A stretch of DNA of 48,600 nt, taken from positions 1-48,600 of the forward strand of contig CAMEWO010000015.1 of NCBI GenBank assembly GCA_945946665.1, written 5' to 3'. The stretch comes from an uncultured Eubacterium sp. (GTDB taxonomy: Bacteria > Bacillota > Clostridia > Lachnospirales > Lachnospiraceae). Numbering within the stretch: the stretch's first letter is position 1; the number at the start of each line of letters is the position of its first letter. The position numbers and the translations under genes are program-made. Below the pieces are notes generated by a model, which saw nothing but the letters and a program-made list of their open reading frames with translations, was not told the origin of the DNA and searched no databases. Shown here piece after piece: positions 6,601-27,875 of this stretch.

Positions 6601-7674
6601 TACCGCAGACGATGTCATACCAGAAACTGTTGCTTCACCAACAACAATATATTCAATCTCCTTTAATACCTCTTTATCATCTACTGCATCATTTGAATTC
6701 GCATCATTATATACAATAACCTTCTTATTAGCTGTATCTAATAAACACTTATAAGCTGAACCCGAAACTTCATCTGTTGATTCTTTAACAATGCTAAAGT
6801 TTTCTGCCGTAGGTTCTTCAGAAAACTGCAATTTTGATGTACCCGCTGTAATTGTAGCTGAAACGCTAAAATCTCCCTCATCAGACAGTGAACCATCTAA
6901 AGAAAAAATCTCTGATGTTTTATATAAAACCTTAAGGGCAACTGCTTGTCCTGAAGCCAATGGATATACGTCCTGACCATCAACAGTTACCTTGAGGTTT
7001 TCTAAAGTTGCAACTGTATCGTCAATAAGAATCATTGGATATAATGAATCACTTGACAAATCGATGTCAGTTGGTAAAAAACTTCCCGTATATTCTACGC
7101 CGCTTGAAACAACCTTACATGTTATTCCACTTGAAGTCTTTTTCACTTCGAATGAATACTTTGTACCAAGTAACGCACCCGAATTTAAATTTCCGCCTGA
7201 AGCATTCTTTACATTACCAGAACCATATGTTCCATCTGACTTCTTATATATTGGTCTTATATTTTTATTTCCCCTAAAAGCTAAGCAAGCATAGTTCGCT
7301 TTATCCTTATAAACACCAAATCCTATTCCTGATGAATTTGAAGCATATGTACTTGATACAGTAATATCACATACCAGAGTAATATCTTTACTGGTTGACT
7401 CCCCCAGCGTTAAAACCACTGAGTTTGACAAATCAGTAGTTGAAATTGGTCTCACAGCTTTAGTACAATTCAATTCAATTGAATCACTATTTTCCTTAAC
7501 AACAATACCATCAGTATTATTTTTGTTAGTCCAACCAGCAATAGTTGTACTATCCGCCGCCTTAACTTCTATCATTCCAAAACCTGCGAAGTCCAACGGA
7601 ACCACACCCACAACCATCAAGGCTGCAAGCACACATGCGATTATCCTTTCTGTAAATTTCCTACGCTTTTTCAT
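634..7674 (-). CDS. giant wall-anchored pectin methylesterase / pectate lyase
   Basis: Secreted 2346-residue enzyme predicted to remove methyl esters from pectin and then cleave the polygalacturonate by beta-elimination. Order by rough residue: signal peptide 1-39; beta-sandwich, possibly carbohydrate-binding, 40-240; carboxypeptidase-regulatory-like repeat 345-420; small beta domain 590-690; second beta-sandwich 700-910; two fibronectin III-like modules 912-1100; Ig-like module 1105-1195; CE8 pectinesterase 1200-1500 with YQDTLL and GNVDYMWG carrying the two catalytic Asp, and LGRPY where most members have LGRPW; PL1 pectate lyase 1590-1985 with VWVDHCTF, DITVSWCKF and PRVRFGTSHMYN; Ser/Asp-rich linker 2025-2060; beta domain 2065-2300; SPKTADS plus one membrane helix and a KKK tail, a sortase-type anchor variant. 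GGAGGG lies six bases before the ATG. Monocistronic, with its own promoter and terminator. Module names outside CE8 and PL1 are inferred. Confidence 0.93.
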   Translation of the reverse strand: MKKRRKFTERIIACVLAALMVVGVVPLDFAGFGMIEVKAADSTTIAGWTNKNNTDGIVVKENSDSIELNCTKAVRPISTTDLSNSVVLTLGESTSKDITLVCDITVSSTYASNSSGIGFGVYKDKANYACLAFRGNKNIRPIYKKSDGTYGSGNVKNASGGNLNSGALLGTKYSFEVKKTSSGITCKVVSSGVEYTGSFLPTDIDLSSDSLYPMILIDDTVATLENLKVTVDGQDVYPLASGQAVALKVLYKTSEIFSLDGSLSDEGDFSVSATITAGTSKLQFSEEPTAENFSIVKESTDEVSGSAYKCLLDTANKKVIVYNDANSNDAVDDKEVLKEIEYIVVGEATVSGMTSSAVSGAELKFTDVADSSNTKTATIGSDGSYSVSLNTGCKYDVELNNASGYRLDGDTGSQSKKGIMSLDLLLTSAGENVTNQNYPVIYYDAAKSGKVVVGDTTFVVNAPDVEDGVYGVSVESGTGNVEIAGTTKAVVWANLGGQALSSKVTAGDGVGDIDVDDNKITVKYADQTSNPKSYVLEVRDNSLAKEPKKDGVVYSYSLTDGKYFSDLYTNSNKLTKSLSTPDSYVTLKGTVLSGIYFNDSTHGYAFNDGNSIDVKVAGNATITFTGSSFNASSSITATGDGTIYLADDESKTNKVFSMANKNPGTATFKYEGDATTLTFEIGGGTTYIRAIDICNDAPVGERNPDYTAIAEPEWIQLGSGNTLNVTESGQQLKIEQVSGGSNPANCSMLVFPEVKTNNKITFDIEVSGSGYILGGVAKADSASSVGYYFSTIRARKTDVQTANTKNGSAINTSGHLTGGFEAGTKLSYTVERVAADQIKFIVKAGDKEYSYTEKYSSGYQYTANASTYDDALRFGILFNNVMATVTNMKYYDAAGNLLYDQNKYYLPLGTAPVVTGVTATAAEDRTKIVLSWTAGDAEYDANYVIQVKKPGSSVWEDVDKDSFIQSKTFDYMVDSNASGDYQFRVFGTLGRDVDQKSANKTAVVESNVANIIAALPKPVVTLPYTSPANQVSLTWTPSAGATRYEVYRRSSDEEDMTKIADVTTTSYVDKTVQAEVPYYYYVKGFSSTNFGNFSDEVWTLPTNGHSGEYDENVALELTKRSFNTVFENKITLEGVAGAAGTVSVAVNGVTQQTATVASANGTFSFDNNITLAQGRNDVVLTLEYAGGKIRKSLNYVYLTKYDIVVDAEYSGTAGTPDVNGAPQYKTITEAVAVAGGSKVILVRNGDYNERLVIDKANVSIIGEDSVKTRIYYDTSIDGHIGDNVGPDGNKGTEWRCAMYVKSSATGFTAENITIENSYQYTGTGYNGSSNESAEALRCDAPGAQIVGVRLLGYQDTLLANKSSQYYYKCYIAGNVDYMWGQDVTIYFNDCDFVFRYNSVKNSGYYTAFGNSPDSSAYVLFNNSRFYSEGSCGGQKYYLGRPYKANSSLTFVNCYMGSVLNKEWGYATWGGAELSSDKEAYEGAKYYESGTYGAGYDVNFNRRQISASKAQSMVATALGLINDISANYKGNMVLPANTGFVTSTYTTDKYSQYEGDDTGLAKYNLEGFAASSSTTGGGLLKENNANYYKVSTASEFLNAVKKIRATKGTPSVIEVTSDLNLGYNEAGGEAFGDTNIIAPHNPALLSPVLKASGVSKIYIKGISNLTIFSKNGASIKHAALDISDSKNIIIRNLQFDELWEWDEKTAGDYDENDWDYMTIENGSSRVWVDHCTFYKSYDGVVDIKTTGQYATGMDITVSWCKFMPGSKGNVFFNAMMNMMKSNPDAYPYYNSLLKSGMSDEQIRIYAYGQKKTHLLGQNDEATANENLHVTFANNYYYDSMDRMPRVRFGTSHMYNCVMDAQELFDARMSITNKEAAKHIVSNGASSTCDANVLLENCYLNGIINALNSGNGSSPSGYINAINSLYYINGTRYKLEPKVNNSLEASDRTLKITDASSFKSSLGYSYVLRDAATLSSTVVPYTGAGNVNMSVLQWEKSSYIDAVEAGSDVTYTNDGLPTSNFTDELGNESNPSNPSSPGSDDTDSDSSDDDYDSSDDSSDTDSSNTSSTEGYDVLKPEEIPGATVTQIDGTNFAEIGEISAGAEKVIAAINAEGKITTDAPVMETTENVTSTVVNKLYNDASSIVTTFAKENTSITKEVFDKLKETGKTLSIGVVDKDGKVNSIVTIDGSQLTGKSVNFNLKITVDAKDNKVERVADRAGIKDSSYTIVDFEYSGNLPGTLKAAVNVSGKFNDGTRVALYYYNSKKGVLENQYQIATVSNGFAEFAIDHCSEYVLVDVSAAEGTITTSTLGSPKTADSNAIVFWLMLMCVAVLVLFGIQASKTNDKKKA

Positions 7675-9306: not shown

Positions 9307-10524
9307 TTAGAAGTCAACCTCTGTATCATAGTAGCAGCACTTAAGCAGCTTCTCCATCTCTTCCTGGCTAGGCTGTCTTGGGTTAGAGCCTGTGCAGGCA
9401 TCAAGAATTGCGTTAGCTGCAATCTGTGGAAGTCTCTCAAGGAATACTTCTTCAGGAACGAAGCCCTGCTCTGCTGGATAGCTGTCTGGACCATACTTGC
9501 CGATGCAGTGTGGAATATTCAGGTCATCGTTCATCTTTCTTAAGTAATCAATAAGAAGTTTAACCTTCTCATCATCATTAGAGCCGCCTAACTTCATGAA
9601 GTCAGCAATCTCACCATATCTCTTCTTAGCAACCGGGTCTTTTGCGTTAAATGCAATAACCTTAGGAAGATACATAGCGTTAGCAGCACCATGGATAATA
9701 TGTGCGCCATAATCAGCAAATGCAGCACCTGTCTTATGTGCCATTGAATGTACAATACCAAGTAATGCATTTGAGAATGCCATACCAGCAAGGCACTGTG
9801 CATTGTGCATGCTGTCTCTCTTTGCCATATCTCCATTATATGAATCAACAAGGTCTGCCTGAATCATCTTAATAGCATGCAATGCCAATGGATCTGTGAA
9901 ATCACAGTTAGCTGTAGAAACATAAGCCTCAATAGCATGTGTCATGGCATCCATACCTGTGTGAGCAACAAGTTTCTTAGGCATTGTCTCAGCAAGATCT
10001 GGGTCTACGATAGCAACATCTGGTGTAATCTCGAAGTCAGCGATTGGATACTTAATACCCTTGTTATAATCTGTGATAATTGAGAATGCAGTAACCTCTG
10101 TAGCTGTTCCTGATGTAGATGAAATAGCACAGAAATGAGCCTTAGTACGAAGTCTTGGAAGACCGAATACTTTACACATATCCTCAAATGTTACCTCTGG
10201 ATACTCATACTTAATCCACATAGCCTTTGCAGCATCTATTGGAGAACCACCACCCATAGCAATAATCCAGTCTGGCTGGAACTCCTGCATCTTGGCAGCA
10301 CCCTTCATAACAGTATCAACAGATGGGTCTGGTTCAATACCTTCAATAAGGTCAACCTCCATGCCTGCTTCCTTCAGGTAGCCGATTGCACGGTCAAGGA
10401 ATCCGAACTTCTTCATTGAACCGCCACCTACACAGATGATAGCTTTCTTTCCCTGGAATGTCTTAAGAGCTTCCAGAGAACCCTTTCCATGATACAAATC
10501 TCTTGGTAAAGTAAATCTTGCCAT
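9307..10524 (-). CDS. iron-containing alcohol dehydrogenase (butanol-dehydrogenase type)
   Basis: Cytosolic group III NAD(P)H-dependent alcohol dehydrogenase of 405 residues, likely reducing aldehydes such as acetaldehyde or butyraldehyde to alcohols to re-oxidise NADH in fermentation. The nucleotide-binding motif GGGSPIDAAK is at 91-100. Iron ligands are visible as Asp192 and His196 (GMDAMTHAIEA), His259 (IVHSMAHKTGAAF) and probably His278 (IIHGAANAMYLP); the spacing between the last two is five residues longer than in FucO. GGAGG precedes the ATG by about seven bases. A promoter and Rex-like operator lie just upstream and a terminator follows, so it is a single-gene unit. The substrate cannot be read from the sequence. 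A copy of its leader and first codons lies upstream of transketolase. Confidence 0.92.
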   Translation of the reverse strand: MARFTLPRDLYHGKGSLEALKTFQGKKAIICVGGGSMKKFGFLDRAIGYLKEAGMEVDLIEGIEPDPSVDTVMKGAAKMQEFQPDWIIAMGGGSPIDAAKAMWIKYEYPEVTFEDMCKVFGLPRLRTKAHFCAISSTSGTATEVTAFSIITDYNKGIKYPIADFEITPDVAIVDPDLAETMPKKLVAHTGMDAMTHAIEAYVSTANCDFTDPLALHAIKMIQADLVDSYNGDMAKRDSMHNAQCLAGMAFSNALLGIVHSMAHKTGAAFADYGAHIIHGAANAMYLPKVIAFNAKDPVAKKRYGEIADFMKLGGSNDDEKVKLLIDYLRKMNDDLNIPHCIGKYGPDSYPAEQGFVPEEVFLERLPQIAANAILDACTGSNPRQPSQEEMEKLLKCCYYDTEVDF

Positions 10525-10558
10525 AACAAAATACCTCCATAAAAATAATAATCACGCC

Positions 10559-10582
10559 AGTTTGTTAAATCCATAACAAACT
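10559..10582 (-). promoter_or_regulatory. Rex-like redox operator of the alcohol dehydrogenase
   Basis: AGTTTGTTA-N6-TAACAAACT is a perfect 9-bp inverted repeat. Its core at 10562-10579, TTGTTAAATCCATAACAA, matches the clostridial Rex consensus TTGTTAANNNNTTAACAA except for one base. It lies a few bases downstream of the -10 box, at the expected transcription start, the position for repression relieved by NADH. Rex control of adh genes is established in clostridia; here it is inferred. Confidence 0.75.
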
Positions 10583-10590
10583 CTAGCTAT

Positions 10591-10619
10591 ATTATATTCT
10601 TATTTATGCAGAAATGCAA
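10591..10619 (-). promoter_or_regulatory. promoter of the alcohol dehydrogenase
   Basis: TTGCAT (10614-10619), 17-base spacer, perfect TATAAT (10591-10596) on the minus strand. The same promoter, with the same spacer, occurs in the duplicated copy upstream of transketolase. Confidence 0.85.
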
Positions 10620-10794
10620 GTTAATATTTTGTCAAATTCAATTTAATTTTTTTTAATTCGATTTATCAAACAACATTTTTCGTTTAATATATATATAAAT
10701 AGTATTGACAGTAAATAATCTGTAATGTAATATAATCAATATAGATTTTAATTAACCCTGGTTGTGCTATTTTGTGATATGTATATTATTTATC

Positions 10795-10854: not shown

Positions 10855-11046
10855 ATGGAAGATATGAGCGATAAAGAATTATTACAAAAGAATATAGAAG
10901 AATTTTCACGTCTTCAGAATTATATGTCACTGGCAGATAAATCATCTGAAGTTTACAAAGCTATGAAGATTAGATATATAGAATTAAAAGTTATTCTTAC
11001 AGCTTCTAACGTGAATTTAACAGAGCTTGATTTAATAAAAGAATAG
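10855..11046 (+). CDS. small helical protein of unknown function
   Basis: A 63-residue protein, charged and predicted to be all helical (for example KELLQKNIEEFSRLQNYMS, then ELKVILTASNVNLTELDLI). I do not recognise a family. The size and helical-hairpin pattern recall Spo0E-type proteins, but the SQxLD motif is absent, so I do not make that call. There is no signal peptide or membrane segment. Starts are possible at GTG 10846, ATG 10855 or ATG 10864; 10855 is chosen because AAAGGCGG lies about eight bases before it. It has its own promoter and is followed by a strong hairpin, which supports a real small gene. Confidence 0.65.
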   Translation: MEDMSDKELLQKNIEEFSRLQNYMSLADKSSEVYKAMKIRYIELKVILTASNVNLTELDLIKE

Positions 11047-11197: not shown

Positions 11198-12574
11198 TCA
11201 CCTGTCCTCCGGCAGCTTCCTTATGAAATTCACAATCACCGGAAGTGCCGTAGCGAAAGACAGAACATCTGATACAGGCTGGGCAAGCTGGATTCCCCTT
11301 GCTCCCATTGTATATGTAAGAATATATATCATTGGAATTAAATACAATCCACTCCTCATCATTGACAGGAATGTTGCCCACGCCCGTTGCCCCGTACTTT
11401 GCAACGTCATATTAGACAACACAATCAGTGGATTAAGAAACAACGCCATGCATTGATACCTAAGAGCAGGCGTTCCAAATGCAATAACCTCAGCATCATC
11501 CCTGAATACTGCTATTGCCTGATTTGAAAACAGAAGTCCGGCTACTGCAAACATTCCAAGCAATACTTCTCCTGCTACCAGAGTGAAGCTGAAAGCCTCC
11601 TTGACACGCGAGAACTTTTTGGCACCGTAATTGAAGCCACACACCGGCTGGAATCCCTGTCCAATACCCAGACCTACAGCAAATATGAAGAAGCTTATTC
11701 TTGATACGATACTCATGGCTGCCACAGCTGCATCTCCATATATCCTTGCCTGCTGGTTAAGAATCATAGTAGATACTGCCTGAAGCCCCTGTCTCACAAG
11801 ACTTGGAAAACCAGTTGTCACAATATCGAACAGCACATTGAATTCCCTTGTGATTTTCCTTACAGACAGCTTGCTCTGTGTCTTTCCAGAAAGGAACATG
11901 GAAAGCAGCACGCAGAAGCTGACAAACTGTGATATAGCTGTAGACAGTCCCGCACCTGCAATTCCCATATCAAGTCCGAACATTAATATAGGGTCACCAA
12001 CCATATTAAGAATTGCACCAGTCATAAGTCCGACCATTGACAGAGAAGCCTTCCCCTCAAATCTTAATATGTTATTCATTGTAAATGTACTTGTCATGAA
12101 TGGCGCAGCTGCCAGAATAAACAGGCTGTATGTTTTCGCATAAGGCAAGATAGTATCCGTACTTCCCAGCAGATACACCATTTTTGTATTAAACACAGTT
12201 CCCAGAATCCCAATAAGAAGTCCCATAAACATAGATGAGAAAAATGCCGTGGATGCCACCACTGATGCACTTTCCTCATCTTTATTTCCAAGTCTTCTGG
12301 ATATAATGCTTCCTGCTCCCTGTCCAAATAAGAATCCAAATGCCTGAAGTATTGACATGAACCCAAATACAATACCAACCGCACCACTGGCACTTGTCCC
12401 CAGCTTTCCCACAAACATGGTATCTACCATATTATATATATTGGTCACCAGCATACTTATTGTCGTTGGAATACCAAGCGTAATAACAAGACTTCCCACA
12501 GGCTGTTTTGTCATCTTGTCATATTGTGTAGTATATTTAACCTTTTCGCCCTCTGCACTGCGAAACCAGCTCAT
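11198..12574 (-). CDS. MATE-family multidrug/metabolite exporter
   Basis: A 458-residue integral membrane antiporter with about twelve predicted helices and the MATE N-terminal signature (ITLGIPTTISMLVTNIYNMVDTMFVGKLG), then GQGAGSIISRRLG and the second-half repeat (GIGQGFQPVCGFNYGAKKF). The family exports cationic drugs or metabolites by Na+ or H+ exchange; the substrate is not predictable. The ATG has GGAGG six bases upstream and lies 18 bases after the transketolase stop, so the two genes are almost certainly co-transcribed. It is the last gene of the long minus-strand series. The pairing with transketolase could be functional or simply positional. Confidence 0.9.
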   Translation of the reverse strand: MSWFRSAEGEKVKYTTQYDKMTKQPVGSLVITLGIPTTISMLVTNIYNMVDTMFVGKLGTSASGAVGIVFGFMSILQAFGFLFGQGAGSIISRRLGNKDEESASVVASTAFFSSMFMGLLIGILGTVFNTKMVYLLGSTDTILPYAKTYSLFILAAAPFMTSTFTMNNILRFEGKASLSMVGLMTGAILNMVGDPILMFGLDMGIAGAGLSTAISQFVSFCVLLSMFLSGKTQSKLSVRKITREFNVLFDIVTTGFPSLVRQGLQAVSTMILNQQARIYGDAAVAAMSIVSRISFFIFAVGLGIGQGFQPVCGFNYGAKKFSRVKEAFSFTLVAGEVLLGMFAVAGLLFSNQAIAVFRDDAEVIAFGTPALRYQCMALFLNPLIVLSNMTLQSTGQRAWATFLSMMRSGLYLIPMIYILTYTMGARGIQLAQPVSDVLSFATALPVIVNFIRKLPEDR

Positions 12575-12592: not shown

Positions 12593-14581
12593 CTACATAA
12601 TCCCTTCAACTGCCTTTACAACAGTCTCAGTTGTGAAACCAAATTTCTCAAAAAGCTGAGCCGCAGGGCCAGAAGCTCCGAATCCCTTCATAGACACAAC
12701 AGCTCCGTCAAGTCCCACATATCTGTACCATCCGAAATCAGAAAGGGCCTCGACTGCAACTCTCTTTCTTACTGCATTAGGAAGAACTGATTCCTTATAC
12801 TCAGCGCTCTGCTCCTCAAAAAGCTCCATGCTTGGCATACTTACAACTCTCACATCTATATCCTTCTTTGCAAGTTCAGCCTTAGCTTCAACTGCAAGAG
12901 AAACCTCAGAACCACTTGCGATAATAATTGCATCTGGTACAGCCTTATAAGAATCATCAATTATATATCCACCCTTAAGGGCATCCTTAGATGAGCCTGG
13001 CATCTGTGGAAGATTCTGTCTTGTGAGAACAAGGGCTGTAGGAGTCTCCTTAGATGTAGCTGCGTACATCCATGCAGCACTTGTCTCAACCTTATCACAT
13101 GGTCTGAACACTGTAAAGTTAGGAAGAGACCTGAGCGCAGCCAGCTGCTCAATTGGCTCATGTGTTGGGCCATCCTCTCCAACTCCGATTGAATCATGTG
13201 TAAATATATAAGTTACAGGCAGCTTCATAAGGGATGAAAGTCTTGCCATTGGCTTCGTATAATCGCTGAATACAAAGAATGTTGCTGCAAATGGTCTTAA
13301 ACCTCCATGAAGGGCAATACCATTAGTAATTGCTGTCATAGCCTGCTCCCTTACACCAAAGTGAAGATTGCTTCCGGCATAATTATCCCTGGAGAAATCA
13401 CCGGCATCCTTCATATTAGTCTTATTAGAAGGTGCAAGGTCTGCTGAACCCCCAATCATATTAGGCATATGCTGCTTAATGAGATTAAGAACTGTTCCTG
13501 ATGTGCTTCTTGTAGCTTCAGGCTTGTCACCAGCTGCCCAGTACTCCTCAGAATTGAACAAATCGGACAAATCATATCCATTATAATAGTTATCCCATTT
13601 TTCCTTCATCTCAGGGAACTTGCTGCAATACTCTGCAAAAAGCTTATTCCATTCATCCTCTGCCTTAGCTCTGTCTGAAGCCAGCTCCTTATAATGGTCA
13701 TATACTTCCTGTGGAACCTCAAATGCCTCTTTGCATGGCCAGCCAAGATTCTCCTTTAAAGCTGCAACATTATCTTCACCTAATGGCTCTCCATGTGCAC
13801 TTGCCTTACCCTGCTTAGCAGGACAGCCATATCCTATAAGAGTGTTAATCTTAATAAGTGAAGGTCTGTTCTTATCAGCCTTAGCCTCTTCAATAGCAGC
13901 CCCGATTGCTCCAAGGTCATTGCCATCCTCAACCTCAATAGTCTGGAATCCAAATGCCTCAAATCTCTTCATTACATCCTCTGTAAATGCAATATCAGTA
14001 CTGCCTTCAATTGATATATTATTAGAATCATATAAAACAATAAGCTTTGACAGTCCAAGTGTTCCTGCAAGAGAGAAGCTCTCTGATGATATACCCTCCA
14101 TCATGCATCCATCGCCACCTAATACATAGGTGTAATGGTCAACCACATTGTAACCATCCTTGTTAAATACTGCTGCAAGATGAGCCTCTGCCATTGCCAT
14201 TCCCACAGCCATTGCCATTCCCTGTCCAAGAGGACCTGTAGTTGCCTCAATACCTACTGTGTGACCATACTCGGGATGACCTGGTGTCTTAGAATCCAGC
14301 TGTCTGAAATTCTTAATATCATCGATGCTTAAATCACCATATCCAAATAAATGTAACAACGAATATAACAGCATTGAGCCGTGTCCACCTGAAAGAACAA
14401 ATCTGTCTCTGTTTTTCCATTCAGGATTCTTAGGATTATGGTTCATATGTCTTGCCCATAACTCATATGCTGCTGGTGCAGCTCCCAAAGGAAGTCCTGG
14501 ATGTCCTGATTTTGCTTTCTGAATTGCATCTGCTGATAAAACCCTGATGGCATTAACAGACAGTTCCTCAATATTACTCAT
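12593..14581 (-). CDS. tkt: transketolase
   Basis: A 662-residue, single-chain thiamine-diphosphate enzyme of the non-oxidative pentose phosphate pathway, moving two-carbon ketol units between sugar phosphates in the cytosol. Visible motifs: SGHPGLPLG near residue 26 (catalytic-site His), [18 protein letters not shown], the TPP/metal motif [13 protein letters not shown] followed by NN about 30 residues on, HGEPLG, and the pyrimidine-domain motif HFGVREQAM. Length is usual for bacteria. The start at MSNIEELSV is chosen because GGAGG lies five bases before this ATG; a longer frame would begin inside a repeat. It is followed at 18 bases by a MATE exporter. Just upstream lies a second copy of the alcohol dehydrogenase promoter with a slightly changed Rex-like operator, so redox control is possible. 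Confidence 0.96.
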
Positions 14582-14591
14582 TTTCTCCTCC

Positions 14592-14647
14592 AATCCCGCG
14601 TGTATTACCACACTGCTTTTCTGTCTTTATCTTTCAATCTCTGAAAT
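14592..14647. repeat. 56-bp direct repeat, copy 1 (next to transketolase)
   Basis: Identical at 55 of 56 positions to 14802-14857, in the same orientation. The other copy contains the last codons and stop of the AAA-like gene, so this copy is a displaced duplicate of that gene's 3' end. The near-identity points to a recent event. Confidence 0.95.
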
Positions 14648-14702
14648 TAAAGTAAATCTTGCTATAACAAAATACCTTCATAAAAATATTAATCACGCCG
14701 GT

Positions 14703-14720
14703 TCGTTAATTCTATAACAA
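14703..14720 (-). promoter_or_regulatory. Rex-like operator, duplicated copy
   Basis: TCGTTAATTCTATAACAA, equivalent to the site in front of the alcohol dehydrogenase. One half site is unchanged and the other has one substitution (TTGTTAA to TCGTTAA), so binding may be weaker. It lies directly after the copied -10 box. Confidence 0.5.
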
Positions 14721-14731
14721 ACTCCAGCTAC

Positions 14732-14760
14732 ATTATATTCTTGTTTATGCAGAAATGCAA
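14732..14760 (-). promoter_or_regulatory. duplicated promoter upstream of transketolase
   Basis: TTGCAT (14755-14760), 17-base spacer, TATAAT (14732-14737) on the minus strand, all as in the alcohol dehydrogenase promoter. Predicted transcription start is near 14725, giving a leader of about 145 bases before the transketolase ATG. Confidence 0.75.
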
Positions 14761-14801
14761 GTTGTATTTTTGATAATTATTAATATTAATTCGAAAACGT
14801 A

Positions 14802-14857
14802 AATCCCGTGTGTATTACCACACTGCTTTTCTGTCTTTATCTTTCAATCTCTGAAAT
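14802..14857. repeat. 56-bp direct repeat, copy 2 (end of AAA-like gene)
   Basis: Partner of 14592-14647. It includes the final four codons and stop of the AAA-like gene plus the bases after them. Between it and the copied promoter lie 38 AT-rich bases (14764-14801) that I cannot trace elsewhere in the window. Confidence 0.95.
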
Positions 14858-17789
14858 CTGCTTCTGTGAGATAGATTAAATCTCCATTCTCAGTGTGCTT
14901 CTTCTTAATGCCCTTAAACAGCTTTCGTGAAGCTCTCTTCTCAGAATGGGCAATAGCCTGATTGATAATCTCCTTTACATCATCTAATCTGATATTGTCT
15001 GAAACTCCATGGAGTCTGTCAATCTTCAGATATAATTCAAGGAGGGCATCATCATCAACCTCGTATGAACGTCTTCTTGCGAACTTCTTAGCCATTTCAA
15101 CCAGCTCATTAACTGTATACTGCTTCAACACAAATCTGTGGTCAAATACAGCGGAAAGCTGTGGATTGAAATTGAGAAGTACATTCATCTCTGAATCAGA
15201 ATCAACAAGCACCACTATCATTCTGCCCGTATTCTGTGTCATACATTCAAGCATCTCTGAAATTCTGGTTGGCTGGATTACCCCAGCTCCCTCAACTACA
15301 AGAACTGAACCCATAAGCCTTGGAAGAGCCTTCTTAAGTCCCTTCTGGTTAATGCTTTCGCCTGTTGTTCTGGCAATCTTTCTTGGATTATCCTTATATA
15401 TTGAGTTAATGGCTCTGACAAAGGCTTTTGCCAGATCATATTTATCAGAGCTTGAATTACCGGAGATAATAATATTACCTTTCATGGATGTGTTAGTTGA
15501 CATATATTCCTGGATATGCTGGAAATAATCTGCCAGCTCGGTCTCCACACCCGGCATTTCCTTATATTTCTTAAAGAACTTGGAAAGCTCGTTATTAAGC
15601 TTAAGCTCCCTGGTTTCCTTGACAGGATTTGCTGCCTCAATCTTACTTGCTGCTGCCTTAGGCGAAATCTTTCTTGTTTCGCTCTTTTTAGAAGCTGCCA
15701 TCTCCTCCTCAACATACTGGGCAAGTACATTGTCAGGAACCATGTCAAGCTGGGCTGTATCAAGGGAAATCTTCTCAACTTCACTTTCTGCTGCCGCTGT
15801 AAGCTCTCTCTCTACAGATTCAGCAACTTCATCGACTGCAATATCTTTATTAATCTCACCTGCTGCCCTTGCAGCCTCCTTAAGATTCGATACAGCTTCC
15901 TCCAGCTTCTGGGAAGCCTTGCCTGTTCTTACTGCCAGGTCAGTTTTTGCCTCCATCAGCATAAACTGTGTCTTATCCTTAATTGAGCCTTCAGATGCTG
16001 CTGCAGCTCCAACACTGCCAGCTCCACCAGCTTTTGCTGCCAGCTTTGCCTGCTTTCTCTCTTCAAGAATCTTCTCATAAGCAGCGCTGTTTTCTTCCTT
16101 CTCATCAAGAAGTCTGTCCAGCTCGCTCTTAGAATATTCTTTAGTGTTCTGGCTGCCATACTTTTCTTCCATGACTGATGTCATCCAGTCAGCTATGCTC
16201 ATCTGACCTTCTATCTGGTCATCCTCTTCCTCTTCAGGCTGTTCTACAACCTTAGGAACTGGAACCGGATTAGGTCTGAATATCTCCACATCCTGTTCCT
16301 CATCCTCTTCATCAAGAACCTTGCTCAGATTCTTTGCAATCTCAGCCTGAAGGTTCTGTGTGTCATATATATTGTTAGTAGGTTCTGCTACGGCCTCAAT
16401 CTCCATAGCATCCTCCCTGGCTTTCATCTGTCTTTCTGATTCAGCTCTTTCTTCAGCAAGAGCCTCCTCTTCACTTTCCTTTGTGATTTTGTCATAACTT
16501 GACTCAATCTTCTTCTTAGCATTTGCAATAAGGTCTTTTAATGACTCAGGCATCTCACCAATCTTTGCCTGTTCCTGCTCTGGCTCCCTGGCTGCTGCCA
16601 CTTCTGCCTCTGCGGTTCCTGATATACCTGCTGTGGTATCCTCACCCACACCTGCACCAGCACCAGTTCCATCCTCTGTCCCGGTTGCAGCATCCATTCC
16701 ATCTACAACCGTTCCATCTTCAGAAGTTCCCTCTGCGACAAATCCTGGCTGTGCAGCTTTTGCACTGTCAGCTTCCTGGCTTGATGTCTGCCCCTGCCCA
16801 CTAACTGTGTTATCTGATGCAGCCTTCGCCTCCTCTGCGGCTTTGGCCTCTTCTGCTGCTTTGGCTTCTTCTGCTGCTTTGGCTTCTTCTGCTGCCTTTG
16901 CTTCAGCTGCCTTGGCTTCTTCTGCCGCCTTAACCTGCTCTAATATGAATCTCTTAAGCTTTCTGTTAACACCATTCTCATCAAACTCTGTCTCGAATTC
17001 AGTGTAATCAACATCATCATCCTGATTGACAGCATCCTTCACCATCTTGCTGATATTGATAGTATCCCCTGCTGCCGCAGAACCATCCAGCATCTCATCA
17101 ATCTCAGCTTCCTTCTTGTCACTGAAATTACTGCTGTCCATCTGCTTCTGGAACAGGATTTCTCTTGTAATCTCCATGTCAGTCTTGCGGGCTCTTGCCT
17201 CATCCAGCTTCTTCTGCTGGGAATCAGTAAGCTTCGCTCCGTGGAACTGCTTCATCTTAAGAGCCTTAACAACATAGGCTCCATCCTGGAAAAGAAGTGC
17301 TATCTCATCACATGCCTTTACGCACTCCTTCTTCCTTCCTGTCTTGGAATAGAGCTTAGCCAGCTCGTACATGTACTTTTCATCAACTTCCTGAGACTTG
17401 TAATCTTCCAGAATCTCCACAAGTTCATTACTTTGGGCACCCTCTGCTTTTCTTAACTCATAGTAGAGGACATATTTGTTAACATCTCTGGATGCCATTT
17501 TCTCATATTCGAGGAAAAGCTGATCCGCATCATCAAACTGTTTCAGCTTTATCATAAGTGTTGTAAGCTCATATACCAGCTTCTTGCCTCCAAGATTCCT
17601 GTTATATGCAAGAATAGCCATATCTCTGGCCACTTCCAGCTCACCCACCTTTTCATGAGCAGTGATGGCTGCTGACAGTGATGGCCAGTCCTTGACCTTA
17701 TGCCAGTCAAGTGTCTTTGCCAGGTCAGAAGCCTGCTTGTATTTCTTTTTCTCAACAAGAGTCTGGATTTGCTCCATGCTTATTTTCAT
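14844..17789 (-). CDS. TPR / Ala-rich coiled-coil protein with degenerate AAA domain
   Basis: A large cytosolic protein (about 981 residues from this start). The first 250 residues are helical repeats of TPR type (KKYKQASDLAKTL, FDDADQLFLEYEK). A run of AKAAEE hexapeptides coded by an 18-bp DNA repeat (about 16829-16935) leads into a long acidic, low-complexity, coiled-coil middle. The last 260 residues look like a CbxX/SpoVK-type AAA domain: NIIISGNSSSDKYDLAKAF in the Walker A position, SVLVVEGAG in the Walker B position, then RMIVVLVD and NPQLSAVFDHRF with YTVNEL. Both Walker motifs lack key residues, so ATP hydrolysis is doubtful. The frame extends to 17891, but no good ribosome-binding site marks a start; the recognisable repeat begins near the ATGs at 17789 and 17777. 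It lies 85 to 190 bases after the SMC-like gene. Function unknown; a scaffold role is a guess. Confidence 0.8.
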   Translation of the reverse strand: MKISMEQIQTLVEKKKYKQASDLAKTLDWHKVKDWPSLSAAITAHEKVGELEVARDMAILAYNRNLGGKKLVYELTTLMIKLKQFDDADQLFLEYEKMASRDVNKYVLYYELRKAEGAQSNELVEILEDYKSQEVDEKYMYELAKLYSKTGRKKECVKACDEIALLFQDGAYVVKALKMKQFHGAKLTDSQQKKLDEARARKTDMEITREILFQKQMDSSNFSDKKEAEIDEMLDGSAAAGDTINISKMVKDAVNQDDDVDYTEFETEFDENGVNRKLKRFILEQVKAAEEAKAAEAKAAEEAKAAEEAKAAEEAKAAEEAKAASDNTVSGQGQTSSQEADSAKAAQPGFVAEGTSEDGTVVDGMDAATGTEDGTGAGAGVGEDTTAGISGTAEAEVAAAREPEQEQAKIGEMPESLKDLIANAKKKIESSYDKITKESEEEALAEERAESERQMKAREDAMEIEAVAEPTNNIYDTQNLQAEIAKNLSKVLDEEDEEQDVEIFRPNPVPVPKVVEQPEEEEDDQIEGQMSIADWMTSVMEEKYGSQNTKEYSKSELDRLLDEKEENSAAYEKILEERKQAKLAAKAGGAGSVGAAAASEGSIKDKTQFMLMEAKTDLAVRTGKASQKLEEAVSNLKEAARAAGEINKDIAVDEVAESVERELTAAAESEVEKISLDTAQLDMVPDNVLAQYVEEEMAASKKSETRKISPKAAASKIEAANPVKETRELKLNNELSKFFKKYKEMPGVETELADYFQHIQEYMSTNTSMKGNIIISGNSSSDKYDLAKAFVRAINSIYKDNPRKIARTTGESINQKGLKKALPRLMGSVLVVEGAGVIQPTRISEMLECMTQNTGRMIVVLVDSDSEMNVLLNFNPQLSAVFDHRFVLKQYTVNELVEMAKKFARRRSYEVDDDALLELYLKIDRLHGVSDNIRLDDVKEIINQAIAHSEKRASRKLFKGIKKKHTENGDLIYLTEADFRD

Positions 17790-17944
17790 GTCGTATTTAT
17801 CCAATTTCCACGCCACCTTTTCCTTAAATATACTTATCAGGGTCAGAAATTCTCTGCCCATGTATCTAACTCTATCTCCCCAAGGACACAATTATCCTAT
17901 TATTCACATACATCATAAGTCTAACATACCATTTTTGTGTTGTA

Positions 17945-25448: not shown

Positions 25449-25798
25449 TAGAAAAGGCCTCCGCCAAGTCCTCCAAGTCCACCGGTAAGCTTAGACATCT
25501 GTGCAGCCGATTCCTCTTCACACTTTCTTAAAGCCTCATTAGCTGCTGCCATGATAAGATCCTCAAGCATCTCTACATCCTCTGGGTCTACCGCTTCAGG
25601 GTCAATCTTAACCTTTGTTATCTCTCTCTTACCTGTAACTGTGACCTCAACAACACCGCCACCTGCTGCTGCAGTGAATTCCTTTGCTTCAAGCTCAGCC
25701 TGCTGTGTTTCCATCTGACGCTGCATTCTCTGTGCCTGCTTCATCAGGTTGTTCATGTTGCCAGGCATGCCGCCTGGAAATCCGCCTCTCTTTGCCAT
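25448..25798 (-). CDS. YbaB/EbfC nucleoid-associated protein
   Basis: A 116-residue DNA-binding protein of the YbaB/EbfC family that forms a dimer and binds DNA with little sequence preference. Family features are the Gly/Met-rich start ([20 protein letters not shown]), the helix [17 protein letters not shown] and the strand motif [19 protein letters not shown]. The glycine-rich tail [11 protein letters not shown] is typical. It overlaps the dnaX stop by one base (TAATG) and the recR start by one base, the usual dnaX-ybaB-recR coupling. Confidence 0.96.
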
Positions 25799-27498
25799 TA
25801 TATATATTCCTCCTTATCATCTACCACAATGTCAATGTTAACCTGTTGTCTGATATCTGTAAAACGGTTCTGGAAATCATCTCCATCAGGCAGTTTTGTA
25901 ACTATTATATTAACCTTTAGTCCGGTTCTTTCCTCAATTAAATCAATAAGCTGTTCTTTTACTTCTTCCCTTGATACCGAATTGTACGCCGATGTGGACT
26001 TAAGCACAATCTCAAGGCTTGCTCCGTCAGAAGCCAGTGCCACATTAGCCTGTCGTAAGAATGTCAGAAGAAGTGGATCGCTTATGGAACTTACTATGTC
26101 ATCCCAGCTTAATGCAATCTGTTTAATATCTTCAGGGAGAGCCTGAACCACTTTCTTCTCAGGTTTTACGGCCTCCGTCATTCCACTCATGTGTCCTGCA
26201 TCCCTGCCGCCATTATTTCCGGCGTAAGAACCATTCCCCGGTCCCTGATAGTCCCCTTCTCCATATCCTGCCGGAATAAATGTGCCATCGGAAAGCTTGT
26301 CCTCTGTCTCCTTAATATGCTTTATGGTCTCCTCCAGCTGCTGTTCAAGCTGACCTACCCTGCCTGACAGTTCTCCGATATCTGCTGCAGGCTCCATGGC
26401 TGGTTTACACAGCTTTATCAAAGATACCTCCAGCTTAATTCTCTTCTGGGTTGCCAGCTTTAATTCATTGGATAAATCGGACATAACTCTTATATATCTC
26501 ATAAGCGTTTCTGCATCTGCAAGCTTTGCATCCTCTGCCAGTTGCTTTAGATTATCAGCAGACACATCAATAACATCCTCAAGGCTTGATATATCCTTTG
26601 TTGATGCAACTAAAAGAAGGTTCCTTAAATACCAGACAAAATCTGATGTAAACTGTGAAAGGTCTCTTCCCTGCATTACCACGTCCTCAACAATGTGAAG
26701 ACAGGCAGAAACATCTCCTGAAACAACCGCTTTCAACGTATCTGCAAACACTGTTGTATCCACAGCTCCCAGCACATCTAAGACATTTTCATAGGTAAGC
26801 TCATCCTGACCCAGATGAAATGCAACACACTGGTCAATAAGGCTTAAGGCATCTCTCATGGAACCATCTGCCGCCTTGGCAACGTACCGCAGTGCTTTGT
26901 CTTCCACACGGATATTCTCATATTCCATAAGCTGTGAAAGTCTGCCTGCTATGGTATCAATGCTGATTCTGTGAAAATCGTACCGCTGGCATCTGGAAAG
27001 TATTGTAATAGGAATCTTGCTTGCCTCAGTAGTTGCAAGTATGAATATAACATATTCCGGTGGTTCCTCCAGTGTCTTTAACAATGCGTTAAATGCGCCA
27101 ATGGAAAGCATATGGACCTCATCGATAATGTACACCTTCTTCTTTCCCTCAGTTGGAGAATACATTACCTCATCCCTGATTTCCCTTATGTTATCAACAC
27201 CATTGTTTGATGCCGCATCTATCTCAACCACATTCATGGAAACCCCGGCCGCAATAGCCTTACATGTCGGACATTCACCACAGGGACTTCCATCCACCGG
27301 ATTCTCACAGTTCACAGCCTTTGCAAAAATCTTGGCAACTGTTGTCTTACCGGTTCCTCTTGTTCCGCAGAAAAGGTAGGCATGTCCCACTCTGTCCAGC
27401 TTTATCTGATTCTTAAGAGTTGTAACTATATGGTCCTGTCCCTTTACATCTTCAAATGTTACAGGACGCCATTTTCTATATAAAGCCTGATAAGACAT
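25798..27498 (-). CDS. dnaX: DNA polymerase III subunit gamma/tau
   Basis: A 566-residue clamp-loader ATPase at the replication fork. Walker A GTRGTGKT is at 45-52, the zinc site has Cys64, Cys73, Cys76 and Cys79, and IIDEVHML carries Walker [10 protein letters not shown] is the SRC arginine-finger motif. A low-complexity Gly-rich linker (near residues 415-440) leads to a C-terminal tau-like domain. I see no slippery A/T run in the linker that would suggest programmed frameshifting to gamma. The ATG has GGGAGG about eight bases upstream. It opens the operon and lies about 107 bases after the SRP RNA, as in Bacillus subtilis. Confidence 0.97.
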
Positions 27499-27604: not shown

Positions 27605-27875
27605 AAAAAACCGCGCGTCTGACTTCGAACAATAATCCACAGACGTTACCGATACAGTTAGCTCGATCCAGGCTGCCTTCCGGCACACAGAAGGTTTCAC
27701 TTAATGCTGCTTCATTCCTGACCTGACATGGTTCATGAATTTCTGTTGCGAAAGACCCAAATGTCAACACCACTTATATCGGGCTGCTCCATAAACAACT
27801 GCCCTCTGCCAAACATCACCCCTGCTATAGCGGATTTCAGGTACAAGGTGCCGCTACTACCCCGGCTGCGCGGTC
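27605..27875 (-). ncRNA. ffs: signal recognition particle RNA (large, Firmicutes type)
   Basis: About 270 nt, with Alu domain. On the minus strand the 5' part reads GTAGCGGCACC ... TGTACCTGAAATCCGC and closely matches B. subtilis scRNA. The conserved domain IV, ATGTCAGGTCAGGAATGAAG followed by CAGCATTAAG (near 27690-27720), has the GGAA tetraloop closed by A-U where B. subtilis has C-G, a compensated change. The 5' CCGCGC pairs with GCGCGG at the 3' end, and that closing stem plus TTTTTT (27605-27610) acts as terminator. It acts with Ffh in co-translational membrane targeting. The position upstream of dnaX is conserved in Firmicutes. Ends are good to a few bases. Confidence 0.96.

Follow-up and report, generated by a model that had tools for sequence, protein, structure and literature searches.

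A local capture of an alcohol dehydrogenase promoter in front of transketolase, common to two related Lachnospiraceae

The transketolase gene (tkt) of an uncultured Eubacterium sp. (Lachnospiraceae) is preceded by a copy of the promoter region of a nearby iron-containing alcohol dehydrogenase gene (adh), and the same joint is found in one of its relatives. This is a real, local promoter capture common to two related species, and from comparison of the two loci we consider it fairly probable that a tandem duplication followed by trimming produced it. The window, that is, the whole 48,600-nucleotide stretch analyzed here (GCA_945946665.1, contig CAMEWO010000015.1, positions 1 to 48,600), contains the following genes of the locus.

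14844 to 17891, minus strand: AAA-like gene upstream of tkt (open frame from the first possible start)
12593 to 14581, minus strand: transketolase (tkt), downstream of the captured promoter (TIGR00232, 929.5 bits, cut-off of 682.25)
11198 to 12574, minus strand: MATE exporter gene, downstream of tkt (PF01554, 177.6 bits)
9307 to 10524, minus strand: iron-containing alcohol dehydrogenase, adh (PF00465, PF25137)

The C terminus of the AAA-like protein is weakly SpoVK-like (41.3 bits against a cut-off of 422.95), and no Pfam family was found over the 881 residues scanned. Between the MATE gene and adh, the opposite strand carries a 63-residue open reading frame (10855 to 11046, plus strand) with no Pfam family at an E value of ≤0.01, which looks Spo0E-like by eye only. 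Farther away, a bacterial large SRP RNA (RF01854, 182.1 bits) lies at 27611 to 27873 on the minus strand, just upstream of dnaX (25798 to 27498).

The captured stretch and its source are made up of the parts listed below, in which G011 is the related genome that carries the same insert and ORF X is an open reading frame seen at greater length there.

14802 to 14857, minus strand: 56-bp direct repeat, upstream copy, holding the end of the AAA-like gene (final codons and stop) and the native AAA-tkt spacer (55/56 identical to the other copy)
14802 to 14806, minus strand: GGATT, a 5-bp microhomology common to the end of the repeat and the tail of ORF X in G011 (similarity between G011 and the window stops here)
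14786 to 14801, minus strand: last bases and stop of ORF X, TACGTTTTCGAATTAA (the same leader copy follows ORF X in G011)
14648 to 14772, minus strand: adh leader copy with promoter, operator, decayed ribosome-binding site, and first six adh codons (14 mismatches in 125 against 10507 to 10631)
14755 to 14760, minus strand: −35 element TTGCAT, weak (aligned with 18 adh leaders)
14732 to 14737, minus strand: −10 element TATAAT, spacer of 17 (aligned with 18 adh leaders; same hexamer in G011)
14703 to 14720, minus strand: Rex-type operator copy, TTGTTATAGAATTAACGA, with one half-site base changed (identical in G011)
14663 to 14665, minus strand: former adh start codon, now ATA, also ATA in G011 (ATG at 10522 to 10524)
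14592 to 14647, minus strand: 56-bp direct repeat, tkt-proximal copy (55/56 identical to the upstream copy; 56/56 in G011)
10507 to 10631, minus strand: native adh leader, the source of the copy (leader alignment)
10562 to 10579, minus strand: native Rex-type operator, TTGTTATGGATTTAACAA, one of two exact TTGTTAN6TAACAA matches in the assembly

In an ungapped alignment, positions 14648 to 14763 match 10507 to 10622 at 106 of 116 bases, with 10 mismatches; the next-best ungapped match to this leader on either strand of the whole window reaches 55/116. No third leader copy was found in the 2.45-Mb assembly, in which the two copies alone fall below an E value of 0.2, the repeat itself aside. The copy points toward tkt. 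Read along the minus strand, the end and stop of the AAA-like gene in the first 56-bp repeat are followed by TACGTTTTCGAATTAA (14801 to 14786), AT-rich DNA, TTGCAT-17-TATAAT (14760 to 14732), the operator-like TTGTTATAGAATTAACGA (14720 to 14703), TGAAGG, ATA and five more adh codons, the second 56-bp repeat, GGAGG, and the ATG of tkt. The repeat block spans 266 bp in all (56 bp, 154 bp, and 56 bp), and the repeat at 14802 to 14857 contains the C-terminal codons and stop of the AAA-like gene (FRD*). Two features characteristic of promoter capture by tandem duplication are present: the donor promoter and a donor 5' fragment (six adh codons) are joined to the AAA-like gene end and tkt, and the receiver-side DNA of the joint is also kept at its native site, as the 56-bp direct repeat. 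The promoter hexamers and their spacing are the same as in the native adh leader. Since the start codon is gone (ATG to ATA) and the ribosome-binding site is weakened (TGGAGG to TGAAGG), we propose that the captured stretch now reads as an untranslated leader carrying a promoter for tkt and the MATE gene. The original prediction for this DNA had described a gap-free 116-bp leader copy with about 10 mismatches, an ATA in place of the start codon behind a weakened ribosome-binding site, one changed half-site base in the operator (found to be TAACAA to TAACGA), and two flanking 56-bp repeats, one being the end of the AAA-like gene; in each of these points it agrees with what we found.

Among the 22 genomes of the genus that were compared, the insert is present in two, the window's genome and G011, which is its nearest relative as judged by tkt (97.7% identical residues, versus 78 to 88% in the others). 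The leader copy is absent at all 17 readable AAA-tkt junctions of the relatives, a count that omits G010, G015, and G021 as not judgeable and G011 as missing the AAA side. These junctions bear out the earlier proposal that the adh promoter region came to lie ahead of tkt and the MATE gene by rearrangement; had it been fixed in all distant relatives, the arrangement would have spoken against that proposal, and with the copy absent at 17 junctions the reading stands. The best further match to the leader among the 22 genomes (E = 9.6e-5) was the adh leader of G020 itself. Fifteen fetched stretches, the window's own aside, contain both tkt and adh. The adh gene follows tkt directly, at about 125 to 505 bp, in seven (G001, G006, G013, G017, G018, G019, and G020); the MATE gene lies 133 to 184 bp before adh in three (G005, G016, and G021), with tkt and MATE about 9.5 kb apart in G016; and the interval between tkt and adh is about 2.5 to 4.5 kb long, with no identified gene, in five (G002, G003, G008, G009, and G014). 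The MATE gene comes after tkt in G004 and G007, where adh is not on the fetched stretch. The usual gene order is AAA-tkt-(MATE)-adh, all on one strand. In three relatives (G001, G008, and G003; loci L189, L192, and L194, respectively), AAA-tkt gaps of about 190 to 200 bp hold a hairpin-like repeat, T-rich DNA, and TTGCAA-17-TATGCT, which, read by eye, suggests that tkt independently acquired a promoter of its own there. The tkt gene of G017 (L184, near 3555) matches as two pieces with a two-base offset, a possible frameshift or assembly error.

All 18 native adh leaders have TTG at −35, a near-TATAAT −10, and TTGT....TAACAA just downstream of the −10. The TAACAA half occurs in 18 of 18 of them and TAACGA in the copy of both species, by alignment and by plain count. 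With a position matrix trained on 17 relatives, whose own sites are thus scored on their own matrix, the native operator scores 17.9 bits and the copy 11.5, the range of all 18 natives being 16.8 to 22.8. The 18 operators of the matrix scan were chosen by a pattern requiring TAAC[AG]A, and it is the leader alignment that shows TAACAA to be invariant. Across the window the copy ranks third in the matrix scan; the two higher-scoring sites are the native one and a match at 6774 that is unrelated. Rex sites with up to one mismatch showed no enrichment in the assembly (28, versus 35 in a reversed control), and the copy's operator therefore cannot stand alone as evidence. No clear target gene emerged among open reading frames of at least 80 amino acids near the other exact site (L206) or near the one-mismatch site closest to rex (L209). 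The AAA-tkt gap of G013 (L183) has a weak Rex-like match of 8.8 bits, TTATTAATACAACAACAA, so Rex-like DNA ahead of tkt may not be entirely unique.

The Rex-type DNA-binding domain (PF06971) was found in 21 of the 22 genomes, including those of the window (80.9 bits, G000 C1:206153-206299) and G011. Because this model also matched 7 of 14 control genomes, the open reading frame was retested with NCBIfam, and Rex is encoded in the window's genome (NF003990, 316.1 bits versus a cut-off of 233). The Clostridia consensus for Rex sites at fermentation genes is given as TTGTTAANNNNTTAACAA in the excerpt available (PMC8457756, citing Ravcheev 2012). As far as that excerpt describes such Rex-controlled genes, the locus resembles them in the near-consensus palindrome of the 18 native adh leaders and in the presence of a Rex gene in the genome; the tkt copy departs from them at the one conserved half-site base that is altered in both species. 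In the portion of the Staphylococcus aureus work used here, Rex binding was at 57 nM for a site free of mismatches, 120 nM with a single mismatch, and 270 nM with three mismatches; substitutions at positions 1, 4, 5, 6, and 7 within one half reduced binding, and that portion does not name positions 2 and 3 among them (PMC2883068). The copy's operator change is at the second base from the outer end of the half-site, and a strong effect on the operator does not follow from that portion of the S. aureus data, in which position 2 is not named. Since the changed base is conserved, redox control is probably weakened: we expect Rex control of the copy to be reduced, not certainly lost, and Rex repression of the captured promoter is probably partial or lost. 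The earlier claim that transcription of tkt and the MATE gene is redox controlled may be right but is not upheld at this strength, with an operator base changed and a score of 11.5 against 17.9 bits. A literature search linking the Rex regulon with transketolase returned transketolase as a row in a protein table.

Transcription may also reach tkt from upstream. Between 14400 and 15000 no terminator reading toward tkt was found, the one site listed there sitting on the opposite strand, and read-through from the AAA-like gene into tkt is therefore possible. It had also been claimed that tkt and the MATE gene are separated from the long dnaX operon; with no terminator in that interval, this part of the original prediction is not borne out. 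The missing terminator is what one would see if the insert were an inert scar, with its promoter silent and tkt still read from the dnaX/AAA operon, a functional reading that is compatible with the proposed origin and that we regard as conceivable, if doubtful. The operator, ribosome-binding site, and start codon are all altered, as an inert stretch would allow, and the consensus promoter scan omits the captured promoter, since its −35 is weak (3/6 bases in agreement with TTGACA); the scan listed one other promoter-like site on the tkt strand, versus 2.2 expected by chance. Set against a silent promoter is the match of the −35, −10, and spacing to the native adh leader, unchanged in the two species. 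The −35, −10, and operator are identical between these species, and the spacer, leader, and ribosome-binding site differ at one base each. The insert and repeat together differ between species at 4/209 positions, versus 32/526 four-fold sites (P = 0.02, weak evidence that was pooled after the fact); for the insert alone the comparison is 4/153 versus 32/526 (P = 0.10). The conserved promoter elements and low divergence hint, not strongly, at retained function. Under the reading we prefer to an inert scar, the captured promoter would serve tkt and the MATE gene alongside possible read-through from the upstream operon.

The origin of the insert is best approached through G011, whose assembly is 77% complete and consists of about 220 contigs. 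Its contig C152 (4,379 bp) begins with 24 bp identical to the MATE end of the window (11204 to 11227), which is followed by ORF X, the leader copy, the tkt-proximal repeat, tkt, a 323-bp stretch, the MATE gene, and 48 bases past the MATE stop. The 323-bp stretch (L068, 2618 to 2940), which separates tkt from MATE, has a long inverted repeat and is not in the window. ORF X is an open frame of 138 codons back to the upstream stop in G011, ending in GFTFSN*, and its last 16 bases are the upstream limit of the insert in the window (14786 to 14801). The two species can be aligned up to TACGTTTT plus the preceding five bases, GGATT, and then diverge; beyond GGATT the window enters the AAA-tkt spacer and G011 enters ORF X, which suggests that GGATT is a deletion junction in the window's lineage. 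In G011 the 24-bp MATE end and ORF X, which precede the new joint, lie at the contig edge, an arrangement not present in the window; in genome searches the 24-bp piece had E values of 2.3e-4 to 6e-4. It differs from the full MATE gene of C152 at one base (its third base, TTC/TTT), as expected of a second MATE copy, and compared with C152's own MATE end it gives an 86% match with a gap. MATE-end DNA stands before the adh leader in three relatives, and the same DNA before the G011 copy is what a tandem duplication predicts.

We hypothesize that a head-to-tail duplication in an ancestor of the window's species and G011 took in the end of the AAA-like gene, tkt, MATE, ORF X, and adh as far as its sixth codon. 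At the new joint, the second AAA-end/tkt/MATE would have come to lie immediately behind the adh promoter, operator, and start; both species show this leader/repeat/tkt joint. A later deletion in the window's lineage would have removed the first tkt-MATE-ORF X, from the end of the first AAA-tkt spacer to the end of ORF X across the 5-bp microhomology, as the comparison with G011 suggests, leaving the 56 bp, 154 bp, and 56 bp. The native leader and copy differ at 10/116 positions, a level no different from the 32/526 four-fold sites at which tkt and MATE differ between the two species (P = 0.30), which fits an event near or before the species split. The repeats differ at 1/56, versus 10/116 (P = 0.11) or 14/125 (P = 0.04) for the leaders, a mild misfit for one event that could be explained by conversion between the close repeats or by faster change in the copied leader. 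The proposed intermediate rests on a contig edge, since G011 is fragmentary. Its assembly lacks the AAA 3' end and adh, and the two-copy state was not seen there. The DNA after the MATE gene in both species differs from the context of the 24-bp piece, so a tandem duplication must assume further changes; nor is any homology visible where adh is joined to the AAA-like gene end, which likewise counts against it. ORF X was not found beside adh in any other genome of the genus, its sole other match at an E value of ≤1e-10 being a 322-residue relative in G007 (36/80 identical) on a different contig from adh. At the native adh, the 9-bp TTAATTCGA in AT-rich DNA is the sole hint of the ORF X end. The 122-residue tail of ORF X matched no family in Pfam (E ≤ 0.01), NCBIfam (E ≤ 0.001), or PHROGs (E ≤ 0.01), and its G007 relative matched none in the same three collections (E ≤ 0.01). 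ORF X may resemble Rpn/PD-(D/E)XK transposase-like nucleases.

A second tkt-MATE was not found in the window's assembly or in that of G011, and elsewhere in the window's genome there is one 98-bp, 71% match to MATE. This absence would be natural if no large duplication had ever occurred and template switching had instead brought the adh-start stretch into the AAA-tkt junction, duplicating a 56-bp target; taken by itself, the window shows exactly such an insert and target duplication. A target duplication of 56 bp would be long, however, and the MATE end and ORF X before the leader in G011 go unexplained unless the insert was originally much longer. We therefore think such an ectopic copy-in unlikely as the source of the joint and keep to tandem duplication and trimming.

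Putative mobile promoters, and the transfer of noncoding regulatory DNA, were reportedly described by Matus-Garcia in 2012 and Oren in 2014. Such elements are several dispersed copies before unrelated genes, and the tkt case shares with them the appearance of a promoter before another gene and a promoter-bearing segment present twice. It differs in being local, with two copies only and traces of flanking genes in G011: the copies in the assembly are 4 kb apart, one of them is the native leader, and no long match exists elsewhere in the 22 genomes beyond the equivalent site of G011. Insertion of a dispersed mobile promoter before tkt is thus very improbable, and we reject it. An assembly artefact is more improbable still: repeats can mislead short-read assembly, but the leader/repeat/tkt joint recurs in a second assembly, and the repeat block is just 266 bp long.

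Closer parallels come from laboratory evolution. According to the sections available, the Cit+ mutation of Escherichia coli is a tandem duplication of rnk-citG that puts citT under the rnk promoter (PMC5918244). The tkt case resembles that account (PMC5918244) in the proposed head-to-tail duplication behind a neighbor's promoter and in a truncated fusion frame at the joint; it differs, so far as the account goes, in being inferred from natural genomes, in having a central-metabolism gene as receiver, and, in the window, in having lost the donor start codon and one of the two copies of the duplicated genes. Deletions and tandem duplications formed without homology are also described as routes to promoter capture, under laboratory selection on transferred genes, in the passages used here (PMC11111574). 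The tkt locus is like those cases in its illegitimate joint, no homology being visible at the adh/AAA joint, and in having duplication as the proposed route; their setting of laboratory selection on transferred genes is the difference that these passages bring out.

We tentatively entertain, as a less than likely possibility, a fuller account in which the locus is a natural fossil of two steps: duplication of a tkt-MATE block onto the neighboring Rex-controlled promoter would have rewired a pentose-phosphate enzyme and a MATE exporter to NADH sensing, and the surplus would then have been trimmed, the sister species standing in or near the untrimmed state and the weakened operator tuning Rex repression without abolishing it. 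The published cases of promoter capture by tandem duplication considered here come from laboratory evolution or selection, where duplications of this kind readily collapse, according to the part of the Cit+ report drawn on here (PMC5918244). An inherited case from nature, in which one species is trimmed and a sister carries traces of the intermediate, would show how captures become permanent, and the tkt locus offers a small, testable case in which an operator changed once it had been captured.
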